This document shows, one piece after another, positions 4,863 to 19,790 of a DNA stretch of 33,522 bases. A program made the translations under genes and the position numbers. How positions within the stretch are numbered: position 1 is the stretch's first letter; each line of letters starts with the position of its first letter. Origin of the DNA: a virus; the IMG/VR virus record IMGVR_UViG_3300025164_000338, positions 1-33,522 of that record. One strand, written 5' to 3'. Below the pieces are notes generated by a model, which saw nothing but the letters and a program-made list of their open reading frames with translations, was not told the origin of the DNA and made no database searches.

Positions 4863-5029
4863 TCGCTACTTCCACCGTCATATACTGTATTGCAATCTCT
4901 ACACGTATGCACATGTGCCGGCGTACGCTGCCAGCACTCATGCACACCAGTATTTTCTTTGGAAACCGGATTTACCGGGCAATCACTTCCCCAATTAAAC
5001 TCACACAGATTACCTGGTAGCATAGCCAT
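4859..5029 (-). CDS. 56-aa zinc-finger-like protein
   Basis: The frame runs from ATG at 5029 (or a second ATG at 5023) to TGA at 4859. Cysteines fall in LCEFNWGSDC, HECW and HVHTCRDC, enough for one or two metal sites. It overlaps the end of the polymerase palm gene and is coupled to the small membrane genes that follow. The role is unknown. Confidence 0.65.
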   Translation of the reverse strand: MAMLPGNLCEFNWGSDCPVNPVSKENTGVHECWQRTPAHVHTCRDCNTVYDGGSSE

Positions 5030-5867
5030 GCCCCCAACTTTCTCCGTAAACCTTTCCGCTTACGGTAATAGGTACTCCTCTGAAATGAGTAGACATCACT
5101 TGCTCGTAAAGTCTGGCGTACACTTCAGCCCTAGACACAGGTGCTTGCCCTAGCAATTCATCATGAATAGGCAGTAACACTGTACATGACAATTTAGGAT
5201 GCGCCATTACCCGTAGCAAGGCTTCCGCCATGATGTCGCGAGCAGTGCTCTGCACGATGTAGTTGACGGCGGTATACGATTTGTCGGCGTCCACCAATAG
5301 GCGCCTGCCGTAGTCGGTGGTTACGTAGCCATGTCTGCGATAGCACAGGCGCTGCAATTCCTTCTTAACAATAGCTTGAGCCGTCTTGCCCTCTGGTGTA
5401 TCTGACCGGAAATTGAACATGCGAGAGCGCAGCGACTTGAAGGCCCGATATTCCTGTGCACTCAATGCACTGCGTAAGACTGCTTCCTGCTCACGCCGTT
5501 TGTAGGCAGTAAGTGCAGGGAATTGCGTCTCATACTCCCTGATGATTTTGTAGGCTGTAGCAAAAGGAATGCCTGCCTGCTCTGAAAGCGTTTTGGGTCC
5601 GCCACCATACAGCCAACCGAAATTGACATTTTTGGTGTAGCGGTATTGGTCTGGTGAATATTCAGTTCCGAATAGCTTAACGGCGGCAACCTTGTGCAGC
5701 GATTCACCCCGTTTGGCTGCCTCAATCAGTGAGGTTTCACCCGCGTAGGCTGCCGCAACACGTAATTCGATCTGGTCAAAGTCTGCTGAGATAATAAGAT
5801 TGCCAGGATCCGCAATCAGGCAGCGCCGGATAGTGTCTGCGGCAAGCAGATGTAATTTAGGTGGCAT
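5010..5867 (-). CDS. DNA polymerase family A, C-terminal (palm/fingers) half of a split enzyme
   Basis: This 285-residue protein carries the polymerase core of family A enzymes. Motif A is SADFDQIELR with the catalytic Asp near residue 29, motif B is KNVNFGWLYGGG near residue 79, and motif C is IHDE near residue 235. The exonuclease and thumb parts are absent here and are found in the separate gene at 7051-8232. I start at the ATG at 5867 (MPPKLHLLAADTIRRC), which overlaps the upstream stop by 11 bases; a GTG at 5876 is an alternative, and neither has a strong ribosome site. The protein starts just before the conserved stretch leading into motif A, so the break is clean. It presumably works as a heterodimer with the N-terminal half. 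Confidence 0.9.
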   Translation of the reverse strand: MPPKLHLLAADTIRRCLIADPGNLIISADFDQIELRVAAAYAGETSLIEAAKRGESLHKVAAVKLFGTEYSPDQYRYTKNVNFGWLYGGGPKTLSEQAGIPFATAYKIIREYETQFPALTAYKRREQEAVLRSALSAQEYRAFKSLRSRMFNFRSDTPEGKTAQAIVKKELQRLCYRRHGYVTTDYGRRLLVDADKSYTAVNYIVQSTARDIMAEALLRVMAHPKLSCTVLLPIHDELLGQAPVSRAEVYARLYEQVMSTHFRGVPITVSGKVYGESWGHGYATR

Positions 5868-6072
5868 ACGGTTCACGGAATACAGTATCTTTGCATTCTG
5901 CTCCTGGACACGCAGTGCACATAATAACAGTAACGAACAATGAATGTTCGTCCCATAGGTGACCACATAGGTTACACATAATGGGAGTATACGCTACTAA
6001 AGTCTTGACGCTATTCTCAGCGGCCAAGTCTTCCCATACCGGATTACCAGGACCCCACGGCATATCACTCAT
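5857..6072 (-). CDS. Small zinc-ribbon protein
   Basis: This 71-residue protein starts at the ATG at 6072, which overlaps the preceding stop by 8 bases. After a polar N-terminus (MSDMPWGPGNPVWEDL) come CNLCGHLWDEH and CTACPGAEC, a C-x2-C plus C-x2-C arrangement suited to zinc. It overlaps the start of the polymerase palm half. It is one of five small genes between the two polymerase halves. Function is unknown. Confidence 0.7.
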   Translation of the reverse strand: MSDMPWGPGNPVWEDLAAENSVKTLVAYTPIMCNLCGHLWDEHSLFVTVIMCTACPGAECKDTVFREPYAT

Positions 6073-6337
6073 CACTATCACCGTAATCAGTTGGTACAGG
6101 GGAAGCAACTACTACGGCCATAGCGCGTGACGTTAGTATTTCTAATTCGATGGTGGTGATGCATGCGAATATATCCACAAGCACTAGGGCATTACCTCGC
6201 TCTATGCCCATTAGTTTAGTAGCCATACGCCTACGGTCTAGCCAGATGGCATGCCCATATAGTATTCCTGATGCCTGGCAGAATCGCGCGAATTGGCTGT
6301 ATGTATTTGTAAATACGAATATGTTCTTGTATGGCAT
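6065..6337 (-). CDS. Hypothetical protein in the split-polymerase interval
   Basis: This 90-residue protein starts with an ATG overlapping the upstream stop (TAATG). The pattern NIFVFTNTYSQFARFC followed by LVLVDIFACIT suggests a small alpha/beta Rossmann-like fold, and the tail is acidic (DYGDSDE). It is not a recognisable homing endonuclease or intein. Function is unknown. Confidence 0.65.
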   Translation of the reverse strand: MPYKNIFVFTNTYSQFARFCQASGILYGHAIWLDRRRMATKLMGIERGNALVLVDIFACITTIELEILTSRAMAVVVASPVPTDYGDSDE

Positions 6338-6624
6338 TACTCTGCCTTCTGCTCAGCGGCCAGTGATCGCTCTAATGCAGCAATGCGTTCCGCGTAATGT
6401 GTGTGCCACATTTCACCAGCATCGCGCAATGTATCGGCAGCCATGCGTAGTCCAACAAGTATGCCTGCCCTATCGTCTGTCGGCTCACAGGGGAGCATGC
6501 GCGTTATCAATTTCTGAATTAGGTTGACATGCTCGTTAGTAAGCCCTTTGCTCATTGCCTGCATGATGAGCAGTGATTCAATCTGCGCAACGTCATCGTC
6601 AAAGGCAGAATGGTTAGTCGGCAT
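6337..6624 (-). CDS. Small helical protein
   Basis: This 95-residue, mostly helical protein starts at the ATG at 6624, overlapping the previous stop. Its central segment DDRAGILVGLRMAADTL resembles DVRVGVLMGMEMALIII in the gene at 6857-7051 and the terminal helices of the paralogues at 4049-4596. The C-terminal AERIAALERSLAAEQ could form a short coiled coil. Function is unknown. Confidence 0.65.
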   Translation of the reverse strand: MPTNHSAFDDDVAQIESLLIMQAMSKGLTNEHVNLIQKLITRMLPCEPTDDRAGILVGLRMAADTLRDAGEMWHTHYAERIAALERSLAAEQKAE

Positions 6625-6847
6625 CGTTGGTGTTCCCATGCAGTAATCCCCATACGGTGGTAGGGTCTAGCTCTGCTTCCTTGATCATTCTGTGATGCAC
6701 TTCTGTCATGCGCATGCTGATAATCAATTGCTTGAGTGCATCTGTTGTCTGTTGCTGCGCCATTGCACGCTGGTGCATCAGCATTTCTTCAATGAGTTCG
6801 TCTCGGCTCATCTTGCCTATGATCTTGAACCCAATCACCAGCCACAT
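6614..6847 (-). CDS. Small helical protein
   Basis: This is a helical protein of up to 77 residues. The longest form starts at ATG 6847, but GAAAGG lies only one base before it. A GTG at 6838 or the ATG at 6811 (MSRDELIEEMLMHQ) may be the true start. Met- and Gln-rich amphipathic helices dominate. It is part of the small-gene string between the polymerase halves. Function is unknown. Confidence 0.55.
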   Translation of the reverse strand: MWLVIGFKIIGKMSRDELIEEMLMHQRAMAQQQTTDALKQLIISMRMTEVHHRMIKEAELDPTTVWGLLHGNTNDAD

Positions 6848-6856
6848 ACCTTTCGG

Positions 6857-7051
6857 TTAGTCAATCGTAAAATGATCAGTGTCTTCTTTGAGCATGCTTT
6901 CAATGATAATCAGCGCCATTTCCATACCCATAAGTACCCCCACACGCACATCGGGACTACTCCATACCTTGTGCTTGCTCTTGTAAAACTTAGCAAGAAT
7001 TCGCTCATGCGCCTTGCTAAGTAGCTCCATGTCATTAATTGGTTGCGTCAT
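6857..7051 (-). CDS. Small helical protein
   Basis: This 64-residue protein starts at the ATG overlapping the stop of the polymerase N-terminal half (TAATG). The segment VRVGVLMGMEMALIIIES matches the core helix of the gene at 6337-6624. It is the first of the five small genes that separate the two polymerase halves. Function is unknown. Confidence 0.7.
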   Translation of the reverse strand: MTQPINDMELLSKAHERILAKFYKSKHKVWSSPDVRVGVLMGMEMALIIIESMLKEDTDHFTID

Positions 7052-8232
7052 TACTCGTCACTCTCTCGATTCTTAGTGGGTAGCTGCTGGAATGGCGGAC
7101 GGCTCACGCTCATACGGGCAGTCCTGGCGCCTAGAGGATTGATGGAAGCGTGGACCCTATCTGCACTGTCCATCTCACGTAGCATCGCGTCTGTGTAGCT
7201 CTCACGCCGTTTGATGAGCTGCTTGGCTAGCAGCACGCTATGCACGAAATCACGTACGGCAGGATCATTTGATGTATTCATGATCCCGCGCAATACCTTG
7301 TCATCGGTTCTGAAGCTGCCCTTAGGTGTGCGTGCAGTGAGATGCGCACCTAGGCTAAGTAATGTATCGGCTAACTGTTTACCAGAATGCACATTGCGGC
7401 AACCCATACTTTCTGCTACACGCATGGCCTGATCAGCCTGATTGGTGTACCGGTCACTAAGCTGCTGTGTGTACGGCACATCTAATTTCATACCGCGCCG
7501 CTGCAATATGTCACATGCCCCTGCAACAGCGAGGTCAAAATGATAGAGGTCTAGGTGGCGCCTGACCGTCGGCTGGAAATACTGCCATACGCGATAGGTC
7601 AGTATGGGGTCTGCCGCTGCATAGGCAATGTAAGCAGGGTGTCTAGGATCTACCAGGGACCACCCTTCAGCAAGGCGTGCCTTACGCATCTTAGGCATAC
7701 CTTTACGTGGTCCGCTTTTGTAGACCTCTCCACAAATGGGCACTTCAATTGTCTTGAATACTCTATTAAGCTCTTTCTCCCACTTACCTGCCTGCCGGTC
7801 GACATGGGCTATCGCAAGCTCTTTGAGCCCGTGACCCGTACCGCCTTCTTTCTGATTACGGGAATCGTGGTGATGAGAGGGAATGTGTGTTTCGCCGATG
7901 CAAACAACGTTAGTTTCATAATCAAGAAATCTATCAATGCATCGGATATCGTGTGGTCCGTTATGTCCGATCCATTTGACATCTTGAGTCATCACCCATT
8001 CAATTAGCTTACGGAATCTAGCAGGGATCACATAGCTGTCGTAAGCGTCACCCACCTGCACGGTACGCAATTCCCACTCAGGCGTATAGCAATTCAACCC
8101 TGTTGACTCTGTATCAATTGCCAAAGCAGAATGGTTGCCTACGAACGTGCGTAGTTCGGCGATATCTGCCCGCGTGTTCAGGTAATGGAACCTGATGCGG
8201 TCACCCGCGATGTGGTCAGTGATCCGTAGCAA
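7051..8232 (-). CDS. DNA polymerase family A, N-terminal (3'-5' exonuclease and thumb) half of a split enzyme
   Basis: This 393-residue protein has the three exonuclease motifs of Pol I-type proofreading domains. These are Exo I AIDTES (D40, E42), Exo II GHNGPHD (D95) and Exo III YAAAD near residue 208. It continues through the thumb to ARTARMSVSRPPFQQLPT and then stops after NRESDE. The conserved line that should follow (TIRRCLIAD, then motif A) is found in the separate gene at 5010-5867. The start is a TTG at 8232 overlapping the previous gene, with AAAGAA upstream; the start is the least certain part. It probably pairs with the palm half to form the replicative polymerase. Confidence 0.88.
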   Translation of the reverse strand: MLRITDHIAGDRIRFHYLNTRADIAELRTFVGNHSALAIDTESTGLNCYTPEWELRTVQVGDAYDSYVIPARFRKLIEWVMTQDVKWIGHNGPHDIRCIDRFLDYETNVVCIGETHIPSHHHDSRNQKEGGTGHGLKELAIAHVDRQAGKWEKELNRVFKTIEVPICGEVYKSGPRKGMPKMRKARLAEGWSLVDPRHPAYIAYAAADPILTYRVWQYFQPTVRRHLDLYHFDLAVAGACDILQRRGMKLDVPYTQQLSDRYTNQADQAMRVAESMGCRNVHSGKQLADTLLSLGAHLTARTPKGSFRTDDKVLRGIMNTSNDPAVRDFVHSVLLAKQLIKRRESYTDAMLREMDSADRVHASINPLGARTARMSVSRPPFQQLPTKNRESDE

Positions 8233-8404
8233 GAGTGTATTCTTTAGCTTGTGTGTGGCAAGCCTCTAAGTATTCCAACACGTTAAATCCAGGGTCCGTA
8301 ATAGTAGGTAGCTCAATATGTGCTACAAACCCATCATCATCAATTGTACGCACAACTAATTCCCGATCATCACGCGTACGTGATACGTTAGTTACCCGCC
8401 ACAT
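8216..8404 (-). CDS. Hypothetical protein
   Basis: This 62-residue protein starts at the ATG at 8404 (MWRVTNVSRTRDDREL), downstream of GGCGGGGG. It is beta-rich at first and ends in a helix (YLEACHTQAKEYTL). It overlaps both neighbours by about 17 bases. No domain is recognised. Confidence 0.6.
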   Translation of the reverse strand: MWRVTNVSRTRDDRELVVRTIDDDGFVAHIELPTITDPGFNVLEYLEACHTQAKEYTLATDH

Positions 8405-8603
8405 ATTGCACGAACCCCCGCCTATAGGCATACACGTATTCACAGTAATTGTACAAATCAAATCCAGGGCGACGTATCAGGATAACAGGTATTGGTGTCT
8501 GCACGATAAAGTCTCTGTGTGCACTATCCACTATGTTGAATAGCCGATTGCCTGTGCTAGCCGCTAAGCTGTTTTCCTCTGTAACATCAGTAATGATTAA
8601 CAT
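8388..8603 (-). CDS. Hypothetical protein
   Basis: This 71-residue protein starts at an ATG overlapping the end of the winged-helix gene. It has alternating hydrophobic strands (FIVQTPIPVILIRRPG) and an aromatic C-terminus (YNYCEYVYAY). No motif is recognised. Confidence 0.6.
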   Translation of the reverse strand: MLIITDVTEENSLAASTGNRLFNIVDSAHRDFIVQTPIPVILIRRPGFDLYNYCEYVYAYRRGFVQYVAGN

Positions 8604-8856
8604 CGCTGTTACCTTCAGCTAGCACATAAGCAGGGTACGAATGAATAGCACCAAAATCAGGTGAACCACCTTGTATAATAACCAGCAAACCGGCACGCAC
8701 CAGGTACGCTAGCGCTGACTTGACAGCATGATTAGGGTAGTTCCATTTTGTGGAAACTTCAGCCTGAATAGTTGACGCTGCATAGCGTGGGTGCGACGCT
8801 ACAAAGTCGTACACGGTAGTACGTAAATCATTAAGCTGATCTCGTGTAAGTGTCAT
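8587..8856 (-). CDS. Winged-helix-like protein
   Basis: This 89-residue protein shows a helix (LRTTVYDFVASH), a helix-turn-helix-like stretch (AASTIQAEVSTKW...HAVKSALAYLVRAG) and a beta wing (LLVIIQGG...AYVLAEG). This is the order expected of a small winged-helix DNA-binding domain. It overlaps the uracil-DNA glycosylase end by 26 bases. A role in phage gene control or DNA binding is an inference from the fold outline. Confidence 0.65.
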   Translation of the reverse strand: MTLTRDQLNDLRTTVYDFVASHPRYAASTIQAEVSTKWNYPNHAVKSALAYLVRAGLLVIIQGGSPDFGAIHSYPAYVLAEGNSDVNHY

Positions 8857-9481
8857 TAATCCACTCCCCTAATAACTCCCAATCACGTTCAAGAGTCGTC
8901 CGCATAGAAGGTTTACGCAGGCCAACAGATGGATGCAGCATTGGCCATATATACATTATATGGCCATCTTTGTTCCTAGCAGTATGACATTTGCCAGCAG
9001 TGCGTAAGATAGCGCTCTGATCACATTTTCCTAAAACAGCCTCTAATGCGCTACCGCCGACCGGAATGATAATGTCTGGCCGACCAACGGCAACCCATTC
9101 TTGCCGTAAGCTAGCACGTGCTGTTTTGATTTCTTGCTCAGTAGGTTTACGGTTACCAGGTGGCCTGAATTTGACCACATTTGTTAGCCAGCAATTAGGC
9201 GCCACTAGTCCTGCAATTACGGGGTAGTCAGCATGGCTACTAATCCGCTGATCAGTTGCCCATAATCCGGCAACACTCATTAGGTCACGTAGCACTCTGC
9301 CGGCAGGACCAACGAACGACCTACGCTGCATTACTTCCTGTGCGCCTGGTGCCTCGCCAATGATGAAGGCCATAGGATTTCCGCCTTCGCCCGGTACGTA
9401 GATATCGTTTAAGTTAGGGCACATGGCGAGTGTAGCCCAGCAACTATCCTCAACGTTACCTAGTTCGTTGTAGTCAATCAT
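8831..9481 (-). CDS. Uracil-DNA glycosylase, family 4/5-like
   Basis: This 216-residue protein has the landmarks of thermophile-type uracil-DNA glycosylases. These are IIGEAPGAQE (active-site motif), FVGPAGRVLRDLM, TNVVKFRPPGNRKP, IIPVGGSALEAVLG and the C-terminal MLHPSVGLR. Cysteines near residues 14 and 21, NCWL and later Cys residues may hold the Fe-S cluster found in family 4, though the spacing is not standard. It removes uracil from DNA. Its place near the polymerase suggests a role in repair during replication. The start is at 9481, overlapping the previous gene by 8 bases. Confidence 0.88.
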   Translation of the reverse strand: MIDYNELGNVEDSCWATLAMCPNLNDIYVPGEGGNPMAFIIGEAPGAQEVMQRRSFVGPAGRVLRDLMSVAGLWATDQRISSHADYPVIAGLVAPNCWLTNVVKFRPPGNRKPTEQEIKTARASLRQEWVAVGRPDIIIPVGGSALEAVLGKCDQSAILRTAGKCHTARNKDGHIMYIWPMLHPSVGLRKPSMRTTLERDWELLGEWINDTYTRSA

Positions 9482-13631: not shown

Positions 13632-13632
13632 G

Positions 13633-13724
13633 TGTCTCTGCCGGGAATCGAACCCAGTTAGCCCGATGACCAGTCAGGCTACGTACATCACCCATATACG
13701 ACTCTTCCAATGAGTTACAGAGAC
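13633..13724 (-). tRNA. tRNA with an extra arm (possible tRNA-Thr GGU, uncertain)
   Basis: The minus strand gives a perfect 7-bp acceptor (GTCTCTG / CAGAGAC), a D-arm ACTC-ATTGGAA-GAGT and a T-arm CTGGG-TTCGATT-CCCGG. Between the D- and T-arms are two stem-loops, each with a 7-base loop. One is CGTATA-TGGGTGA-TGTACG and the other CCTGA-CTGGTCA-TCGGG. The second has the CU start of an anticodon loop and would read GGU; the first lacks U33. Read as a class II tRNA, the second would be a variable arm of unusual size. Length is 92 bases, with no encoded CCA. Amino-acid identity is not safe. Confidence 0.7.
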
Positions 13725-17037: not shown

Positions 17038-17964
17038 CTAGCTGCCAATCTTGAGCAACGCACCCAAGCGGAATGCCCGGAAGCCTCCACCGTTCATGGC
17101 AACGAATTTCACGATGCGGTCAGCGGGTGTCTCATCGCCAATACCATTGTATGCGTGTGTGATCTCGATCGTACTAGCTGATGCCACTGCTGACTCATTG
17201 CTTTGAGCAAGCTTGTTCCACCAGGTTACCCGCATGCCAGCGAGAATCTTAACCAATTCGCTGTCCGGAATCTCATCAGGATCGAACGGCAAATCATTGG
17301 CAGGCGTGTTGTTGTTTGCCGGTCGGTCGACATCCCACAACGCGTAGTGCTGCTGCTCAACATTGCCGTTAATCCAGCGCATGATCAGCGTTTCGTCACC
17401 ACGTGTGGCGACAATTTCTGCGTAGCCTGCTTTCGTGACTGCATCGAACCACGCGCGTCCGGCCACAGTCCATCCGAGGTCCGCCAGGCGCGCCTTAGCC
17501 TCATGAGCCTTGGGAACACTAGGGTTGACTCGCGTTGTGACTTCTGCGGTCTTCTTAGGCGCCTTACGCATCGGACCACGCAGGCCGGTCACTCTGCCGG
17601 AATCGTCCTTGACAGTCTCAATCGCGTCAGCCGGATTACCGGCTTGCTTGCTTTGGTAGCGCCGAATCGCACGGCGCAAGTCTGCCGCTTCCGTGAGTTT
17701 GGTCGCGGTACTCATTCCGAGCGAGCGAGCGTAGGCGCGCAACTCAGCGGCGGACATCTGGTCAAGCGTCTTGGTTGGTGACGACCGGCGGAACCCAGTC
17801 TCAACAGCAACACTAGGTGCTGAACTAAATGTCGGAGCGACAGTACCCTTTTTCACTGCCGAACTAGTGCACGGATTTTCAGGTGCACAACTCACAGGTG
17901 GCCTGCCCCTGCGCGGGATTATCTGGAATGTGCCGCCATGCTCACGGCAGGACAGTGTTTTCAC
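17038..17964 (-). CDS. SAP-domain-containing phage protein
   Basis: This 308-residue protein starts at GTG 17964 behind GAAGGG. The N-terminus SCREHGGTFQIIPRRGRPPV with CAPENPC may bind metal and contains an AT-hook-like RGRPP. Residues 67-103 fit a SAP helix-loop-helix DNA-binding domain (LDQMSAAELRAYARSLG, then TEAADLRRAIRRYQ). A C-terminal domain of about 150 residues (GWTVAGRAWFDAV, WWNKLAQ, DRIVKFV) is conserved-looking but unnamed. DNA binding is inferred from the SAP and RGRPP elements. It is followed by the zinc-protein gene. Confidence 0.72.
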   Translation of the reverse strand: MKTLSCREHGGTFQIIPRRGRPPVSCAPENPCTSSAVKKGTVAPTFSSAPSVAVETGFRRSSPTKTLDQMSAAELRAYARSLGMSTATKLTEAADLRRAIRRYQSKQAGNPADAIETVKDDSGRVTGLRGPMRKAPKKTAEVTTRVNPSVPKAHEAKARLADLGWTVAGRAWFDAVTKAGYAEIVATRGDETLIMRWINGNVEQQHYALWDVDRPANNNTPANDLPFDPDEIPDSELVKILAGMRVTWWNKLAQSNESAVASASTIEITHAYNGIGDETPADRIVKFVAMNGGGFRAFRLGALLKIGS

Positions 17965-18001
17965 TGACTATTCCCTTCTGTGATCGCTATATAATTAGCC
18001 G

Positions 18002-18074
18002 TACCCCGAACGGGATTCGAACCCGTAACACAGGACTTTTAAGGTCCCTGTCTCTGCCGTTGGACTACCGGGGT
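18002..18074 (-). tRNA. tRNA with anticodon UAA (nominally Leu) but short variable loop
   Basis: This is a 73-base cloverleaf: acceptor ACCCCGG/TCGGGGT (one wobble pair), D-arm with loop GG, anticodon arm GGGAC-CTTAAAA-GTCCT giving UAA, 5-base variable loop GTGTT, and T-arm ACGGG-TTCGAAT-CCCGT. The discriminator is A and CCA is not encoded. Bacterial tRNA-Leu normally has a long variable arm; this one does not. Confidence 0.88.
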
Positions 18075-18574: not shown

Positions 18575-18805
18575 TCACCCCGATGTGGTCGCGTAGCCGT
18601 TAACGAATACCCGCAAGCGGCTCTGAGCGAGTACAGCATCGTTTCGGCGCTCTGCTGTACGCGCCTTAGCAGCTGCATATGACGCACACTCACTAGCAGA
18701 TGTTGTGGCAACACCCCAACAACCGTAGTGACCGCAACCGGAAGTAGTGATTGTGCAGTCGCACCCGATATCGCATATTGAACATTCTACCGTGATGGTT
18801 GACAT
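18575..18805 (-). CDS. Cys-rich small protein
   Basis: This 76-residue protein starts at ATG 18805 behind GAGAGAGG. Eight of its first 42 residues are Cys (ECSICDIGCDC, SGCGHYGCWG, SECASY), followed by a helix and a short tail. The density suggests one or two zinc sites. Its leader is preceded by the 24-bp imperfect stem at 18819-18928, so its translation may depend on that RNA. Function is unknown. Confidence 0.65.
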   Translation of the reverse strand: MSTITVECSICDIGCDCTITTSGCGHYGCWGVATTSASECASYAAAKARTAERRNDAVLAQSRLRVFVNGYATTSG

Positions 18806-18818
18806 AATTTCCTCTCTC

Positions 18819-18928
18819 CCTATCCTCTCAATGCAACAGACACTGTGCCGTTTATGCGTTAACCTATGGCCTATTCCATAGTGATACAGCGCATTACCGT
18901 ACAATGTCTGTTGTATTCAAAGGATAGG
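18819..18928 (-). other. Large RNA stem-loop directly upstream of a ribosome binding site
   Basis: The 24-base arms 18819-18842 and 18905-18928 pair with 21 Watson-Crick matches. Inside lie a 6-bp hairpin (CTATGG / CCATAG) and ATGCG/CGCAT. On the minus strand the stem ends two to three bases before the purine-rich site of the gene starting at 18805. Confidence 0.75.
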
Positions 18929-19740
18929 AAAAACAGCGCACGACGCTAGAACGTGTAGACCCCAACATTACCGGGCGTACGCTGTTTTCCAATAGATTTA
19001 CTGGCCTAACCCCCTACCAGTGCGCCACAACGTTGCAGTTCTTACGCCTGCAATTCACGATTACGTGGCTTCCCAAACTTACTCACAGCGCACAATCGCC
19101 TAACCTCTGCGGGTGTCTACCGGCCTACGTGATTGTGTCTGCGCCTTTGGTCATGTACAGCCCTAACCCACGTACCTAGCTGCTCTCAAGGCGCCCCTTT
19201 ATGGATAACGCTACATGCCTTGATTCCCTCTCCTTACCTTACTACCCAATTACAAATGCAAAGGGACTTATACTCAAGCGTAGGACATACGCTGTATTGT
19301 TGCCGTAAGCACTTGCAATGAAACGGAGAGTCCATCGACTTCATCCGACTACATTGCGTGCATCGATCGTCGAAATACTCACGACTGCACTGTAATCGGC
19401 GTCCTGTTCTGCTCTACTCCTTAGCACCCATACTTGGGTTTATGCCACAAGCCGCACCGGAAGTGATCTCAACCGCGTCTATCCGACACGGACTCTCCGA
19501 GCTAAATTTCTGTGTTACCCGCTAGCGCATCATCTCTTGCGACAAGTCACGGGGGACAAGTCGACCCCTAGCAAGTTTTGTCCTGCTCTCGCGGTATTCA
19601 TTCGGTAACTACTAAGCCCGCCGGAGGTAGACTACCCTCAAGGTTCACGTATCCGGACTTATCTACTAGGCGCGATGCCGTTCGTGCCGGGCGTTTGGGC
19701 CGTTGGTCTGTGCTTCGTGCTGTGGTGATGGGAGAACATT
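18819..19740 (-). ncRNA. Candidate long structured non-coding RNA
   Basis: No gene with a plausible start, ribosome site or protein-like composition fits this stretch on either strand. Inverted repeats are frequent: CGGAGAGTCC (19324-19333) with 19490-19499, a 10-bp perfect stem over 156 bases; 18927-18938 with 18980-18990, 11 bp plus one bulge; 19141-19147 with 19188-19194; 19091-19097 with 19131-19137; hairpins 19277-19293, 19033-19053 and 19427-19440; 19195-19200 with 19260-19265; and the stem 18819-18928. The minus strand is richer in G than C and has GA-rich joints, suggesting the RNA is made from the same strand as the genes. Size and phage setting recall large ornate phage RNAs such as GOLLD or ROOL, but I cannot match it to either. 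The short 6-7 bp stems alone would not be significant. Confidence 0.55.
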
Positions 19741-19763
19741 AGCATCTGAATTTGTTAGTGCAA
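19736..19763 (-). promoter_or_regulatory. Weak promoter candidate for the non-coding region
   Basis: TTGCAC (19763-19758) and TAATGT (19741-19736) are separated by 16 bases on the minus strand. Both deviate from consensus. The placement between the CRP-like site and the structured region is what makes it worth noting. Confidence 0.25.
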
Positions 19764-19774
19764 GCTCCTGTGAC

Positions 19775-19790
19775 TGTGACATGGCTCACA
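19775..19790. promoter_or_regulatory. CRP/GlxR-type operator-like palindrome
   Basis: TGTGA (19775-19779), six bases, TCACA (19786-19790): a perfect match to the CRP-family consensus, also used by actinobacterial GlxR/Cmr. It spans the stop codon of the small membrane gene at the upstream edge of the non-coding region. Confidence 0.45.

Follow-up and report, generated by a model that had tools for sequence, protein, structure and literature searches.

Only a small number of large, ornate RNA types have been described in phages, and to our knowledge none of them has a settled function. Trans action as a stable folded particle has been proposed for GOLLD and ROOL RNAs; traits of these families include a multimeric RNA cage for GOLLD and a discrete, highly abundant RNA for ROOL. 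RNase III processing hairpins occur in phage early mRNAs, for example in phage T7. Among host promoter elements, TGTGA-N6-TCACA is the GlxR consensus (PMC7999487).

Here, we analyze an IMG/VR virus sequence of 33,522 bases, referred to below, in its whole length, as the window. An interval at its lysis/early gene junction probably encodes an RNA on the minus strand; comparison with other phages establishes the conservation, structure, and strand, and transcription is inferred. On balance, we favor the reading that this RNA founds a new family that resembles GOLLD and ROOL in setting but belongs to neither.

Results

The source virus is likely a siphovirus of an actinobacterial host, as inferred from sequence alone; the identity of the host is not known. 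Late genes of the window (encoding major capsid, tape-measure, and tail proteins, a GH25 endolysin, and a short holin-like protein) and its early genes (encoding an SNF2 helicase, a PD-(D/E)XK exonuclease, a Sak4-like protein, and DNA polymerase A) lie mainly on the minus strand. Relatives of the lysin are found in Gordonia, Mycobacterium, Corynebacterium, and Rhodococcus phages, and relatives of the tail protein are found mostly in Streptomyces phages. DNA polymerase A (positions 5010 to 9481, minus strand) is split into three open reading frames (ORFs) (8831 to 9481, 7051 to 8232, and 5010 to 5966) with small ORFs between them.

The RNA interval is bounded by the holin-like gene, which ends at 19786, and by a gene for a Cys-rich protein of 76 residues, which starts at 18805 (18575 to 18805, minus strand) and is outside the RNA. 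The initial annotation had described a gene-free interval between lysis and replication modules, and both claims held: positions 18806 to 19785 contain no ORF of more than 62 codons wholly inside on either strand, and the interval lies between the lysis genes and the replication and early genes. The feature was extended to 19790 so that the operator described below is included and, as a small correction, the next gene is the one starting at 18805 and not a longer ORF starting at 18904. No protein-level conservation of ORFs in the interval was found in the homologues, and short shared ORFs were rejected as genes, given that their protein identity was no higher than DNA identity predicts.

Homologues were sought by protein searches with lysin, tail, and early-gene proteins and by scans with conserved DNA motifs. 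The RNA was found at the same junction in five other phage lineages (L002, L011/L012, L017, L102, and L108, where L012 is nearly identical to L011 and L108 is the extended form of L103), and it follows lysis genes in every lineage. The evidence thus rests on six lineages only, all metagenomic. Neighboring proteins diverge among the lineages; for tail proteins, identity to that of the window is 64, 44, and 25%. When the window and L002 were compared at the DNA level, blocks of the RNA were 78 to 79% identical, versus 66 to 77% for flanking protein genes. RNA length ranges from a minimal form of ∼410 nucleotides (nt) in L102 to an expanded form of ∼930 nt in the window. The gene that comes first after the RNA is in most cases unrelated from phage to phage; only in L002 and L011 is there weak similarity. 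A DNA search of cultured phages and plasmids gave no homologue of the RNA beyond chance, the loci of 79 tail-protein relatives yielded no additional RNA, and none was found with the lysin relatives L003 to L009.

A tRNA-Leu (taa) gene lies downstream of the RNA in the window (18001 to 18074, minus strand) and also follows it in L002, L011, L012, and L017; tRNA genes are absent from the short L102 and L103 loci. Other tRNA-like genes in these phages are unusually long or degenerate (window 13632 to 13724, L002:7951-8026, and L017:5876-5960); they include a 93-nt tRNA-Thr, a tRNA whose anticodon is unclear, and a stretch that ARAGORN did not call. A tRNA-like element at L011:1321-1431 has acceptor arms that match each other (GCCTCTG/CAGAGGC); its long insert includes ACCTCCGGCGGGTTTTAGTA, a string similar to TACCTCCGGCGGGCTTAGTA of the window RNA (about 19610 to 19629). 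Also downstream of the RNA in the window, L002, L011/L012, and L017 is a gene for a protein of unknown function (308 residues in the window, 17038 to 17964, minus strand) with a conserved WW/GGFRAFR C-terminal region. Its relatives among viral contigs occur solely in RNA-bearing phages, and none was found in cultured phages.

The initial annotation had also proposed that the interval is highly paired, and the three helices that it singled out are all present: a 10-bp long-range stem (19324 to 19333 with 19490 to 19499; 12 bp with its G-U ends), an 11-bp bulged stem (18927 to 18938 with 18980 to 18990), and an imperfect 110-nt hairpin (18819 to 18928). Folding of the whole region on the transcribed strand is only modestly better than that of shuffled sequence (z about −2.3), and the antisense strand folds as well or better. 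Folding energy by itself is therefore insufficient support for an RNA, and the homologues decide. Comparison of the five further lineages with the window revealed both real covariation and synteny, and it delineates a conserved 5′ domain, a variable central arm, a covarying core hairpin, a long 3′ hairpin, and a palindrome at the start.

The conserved 5′ domain (19594 to 19719, minus strand) carries the motifs CCACA..ACGGC..CAAACGCC, RUAAGYCCGGAUACG, and UUAGUAGUUACCGAAUGA. In leave-one-out nhmmer searches, held-out members were recovered with E values of 3e-11 (L108), 3e-9 (window/L002), 6e-8 (L017), and, weakest, 0.1 (L102); L011 was not recovered by the 5′ profile, which had no other matches in 1.43 Mb. 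The central arm (19148 to 19606, minus strand) is 459 nt in the window and 26 nt in L102. It is closed by the long-range stem, in which 19488 to 19499 (5′ side) pairs with 19324 to 19335 (3′ side), both on the minus strand. Taken alone, the window stem is not beyond chance (equaled in 7 of 100 shuffles); the closing stems of L002 (14 bp), L011 (13 bp), and L108 (11 bp) were each matched in 0 of 100. The L011 stem CAGAGAGUCUCGG resembles CGGAGAGUCCGU of the window with its changes paired, and the remaining stems differ in sequence.

The core hairpin (19081 to 19147, minus strand; models R1 and R2) consists of a stem of 5 plus 7 bp and a loop, CCGGUAGACACCCG..GAGGUUAGG. A covariance model built from three lineages finds L102 (E value of 3e-9) and L103 (2e-8) in 1.2 Mb. 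Seven of the 12 stem pairs have changed on both sides with 100% of cells paired, a covariation score reached by none of 500 shuffles, and control structures slid along the alignment pair in only 18 to 58% of cells. While the stem varies, the loop CCGGUAGACACCC-N2-3-GAGGUUAGG is almost invariant. Seven cells hold G-U pairs that would be A-C mismatches if the other strand were transcribed, which identifies the minus strand as the RNA strand. L102 has a tandem second core hairpin (L102:3182-3253; loop CCGGUUGACACCCUUAGUGGUUAGG), and the hairpin is missing from L017. Four genome-contig matches to the core-loop pattern were all dismissed as chance, with no support from the covariance model; the motif pattern CCTCC..AGTAGTTACCGAA likewise gave only four chance matches beyond the known members.

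Two further hairpins lie between the core and the 3′ end. A 6-bp hairpin, ACUGGUAGG..GGUUAGGCCAGU (19000 to 19021, minus strand), is kept in L002 and is a degenerate echo of the core loop. The hairpin at 18927 to 18990 (minus strand; stem AAAACAGCGUACG/CGUGCGCUGUUUU) has doubly compensated pairs between the window and L002, such that compensated pairs are seen also in helices beyond the core hairpin. Covariation is solid for one hairpin; for the other helices it is thin, resting on two sequences. The 11-bp stem was considered as a terminator and rejected, its U tract not being kept in L002, and no intrinsic terminator was found that clearly ends the RNA.

The 3′ terminal hairpin (18819 to 18928, minus strand) pairs 10 bp, a mismatch, 3 bp, a mismatch, and 13 bp, a layout like that of an RNase III substrate, and its folding energy is far outside chance (z of −9.8). 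All six lineages have such a hairpin (z of −5.7 to −8.0 in the other five), with ∼19 to 26 bp and at least one internal mismatch; the sequences differ and the layout is similar. The ribosome-binding site of the next gene directly follows it in all six.

An operator-like palindrome, TGTGAGCCATGTCACA (TGTGA-N6-TCACA; 19775 to 19790, minus strand), overlaps the 3′ end of the holin-like gene. The exact TGTGA-N6-TCACA stands at the RNA start in six of six lineages, with one change in strain L012. A stricter form, TGTGAC-N4-GTCACA, was found solely at RNA-bearing loci and was lacking from 100 of 111 fetched loci; the window copy has TGTGAG. The arms are fixed and show no covariation, in contrast to the variable RNA stems; a DNA site bound by protein would be expected to behave in this way. 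A Pfam search of the records of these phages revealed no CRP-family (cyclic-AMP receptor) protein, and a host factor is thus inferred to be the likely ligand.

Promoter-like boxes follow the palindrome. The window has a −35-like box, TTGCAC (19758 to 19763, minus strand), and, after a 16-nt spacer, a −10-like box, TAATGT (19736 to 19741, minus strand); L002 has the same arrangement (TTGTGT). In L011 and L108, a perfect TTGACA begins one base after the palindrome, and the TTG box of the window and L002 begins 10 to 11 bases after it, about one helical turn farther. All four have a TAnnGT box 16 bases beyond the −35-like box (TACTGT in L002, TAACGT in L011, and TAGTGT in L108), although these −10-like boxes are weak matches. 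Clear −35- or −10-like boxes were not found in L017 or L102. Use of the promoter is likely; transcription itself and binding by a CRP-type protein remain inferences.

A second copy of the palindrome-N-TTGACA module occurs at 2738 to 2760 of the window (minus strand), at L110:13523-13545 (the phage of L002), and at L113:1643-1665 (the phage of L017), in each case preceding a gene for an Ala/Lys/Pro-rich protein. It is exact in L110 and L113 and has one mismatch in the window, and TTGACA abuts in all three. These copies raise the possibility, inferred from sequence alone, of a small CRP/GlxR-type phage regulon. A third TGTGA-N6-TCACA in the L002 phage (G001:715-730, L112) lies upstream of a gene at 804, near the end of the record.

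Rfam covariance models, GOLLD and ROOL included, were run at gathering and permissive thresholds (E value of ≤5) on the window RNA and on the loci of the other five lineages; nothing was returned beyond tRNAs and matches at chance level. An lncRNA match in L108 was at chance level (E value of 4.9) and on the other strand, and a twister-like string in L108, AAGCCCGGAU, was rejected for lack of Rfam support. A search of open-access titles and abstracts found no description of the RNA element or of phage promoters with this operator; subscription literature was outside its scope. The suggestion of the initial annotation that this may be a new class is therefore supported as far as Rfam and cultured-phage records reach, and the function is still unknown.

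Discussion

We lean toward the view that the minus strand of the interval specifies a large, structured, noncoding RNA, which is released and acts in trans, although no transcript data are available. In this view, transcription would start at about 19729 from a promoter under a host regulator of the CRP/GlxR type, for which there are no binding data. RNase III would cut the ∼22-bp 3′ hairpin and free the RNA from the downstream early mRNA; cleavage has not been shown. The freed RNA would then act in trans as a stable folded particle, by analogy with GOLLD and ROOL. The identity of the regulator, the processing, and the mode of action are all inferred.

The main rival, which remains possible, is that the RNA is a very long structured cis-acting 5′ leader of the early operon, which would work through antitermination, attenuation, or protection of the mRNA and whose 3′ hairpin would shield the first ribosome-binding site. 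Promoter-like boxes lie upstream, and because no intrinsic terminator clearly ends the RNA, it may be simply a leader. In all six lineages only a short stretch separates the end of the hairpin from the next gene's ribosome-binding site and start codon, the location is at the start of the early block, and the great variation in length is permissible for a leader. Against this, the next gene is mostly not homologous among the phages. This counts against a leader dedicated to one gene, though a general leader is unaffected. The conserved elements are also far from the gene, and a covarying core with a conserved loop, duplicated in L102, exceeds the needs of a leader.

Two other explanations are very unlikely. 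One is a DNA element, either a replication origin or a packaging or partition site, whose palindromes mimic RNA stems. In its favor, the junction adjoins replication genes, the antisense strand folds equally well, and a palindrome of the DNA-binding kind is present (without binding data). However, G-U pairs are kept on one strand only (7 cells), compensated stems with fixed loops are typical of RNA, and neither iterons nor an AT-rich tract was noticed. The other is a far-diverged GOLLD or ROOL RNA missed by the Rfam models. The shared setting supports it (phage genomes, proximity to tRNA genes, a length of several hundred nt, and one part conserved while another varies [PMC12286853]), but searches of the window and of the loci of the other five lineages, run with permissive filters, gave no GOLLD or ROOL match at an E value of ≤5. 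Decayed coding sequence or a chance-folding spacer, for which the mere z of −2.3 of the window speaks, is all but excluded by conservation in six lineages, locally above that of flanking genes, and by compensatory changes, with covariation of the core hairpin largely refuting it.

As an independent family, the minimal L102 and expanded window versions show which parts of a large ornate phage RNA are dispensable. The operator provides a first handle on the timing of RNA synthesis and points to the possibility that phages sense host cAMP signaling. A bolder reading, which can be offered only as a possibility, is that the RNA represents a new trans-acting class with no relation to GOLLD or ROOL and that host GlxR/CRP sets its synthesis; if true, the nutritional state of the cell would control an RNA-based step of infection.

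Comparison with known systems

RNase III hairpins of phage early mRNAs resemble the 3′ hairpin in that a gene lies just downstream of a stem of ∼22 bp that contains an internal mismatch. A double-stranded stem of ∼20 bp or longer, interrupted by mismatches, is present in all six lineages, with cleavage inferred; unlike the known cases, the stem follows a large conserved RNA and not another gene. CRP/GlxR-regulated actinobacterial promoters likewise have the exact TGTGA-N6-TCACA consensus beside −35 boxes (PMC7999487), but here the putative promoter is in a phage and would drive a noncoding RNA, without binding data. ROOL is phage encoded, several hundred nt long, multihelical, and near tRNA genes (PMC12286853), as is the new RNA, which has no covariance-model match to it and, to the extent that the model search can tell, carries different conserved motifs. 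GOLLD, too, is large, is carried by phages or prophages close to tRNA genes, and combines a conserved portion with a variable one (PMC12286853); a phage location near tRNA genes is seen here in the window, L002, L011/L012, and L017. The new RNA differs from GOLLD in lacking a covariance-model match (up to an E value of 5), in being conserved at both ends and variable in the middle, and in lying between lysis and early genes, next to a CRP-like operator.
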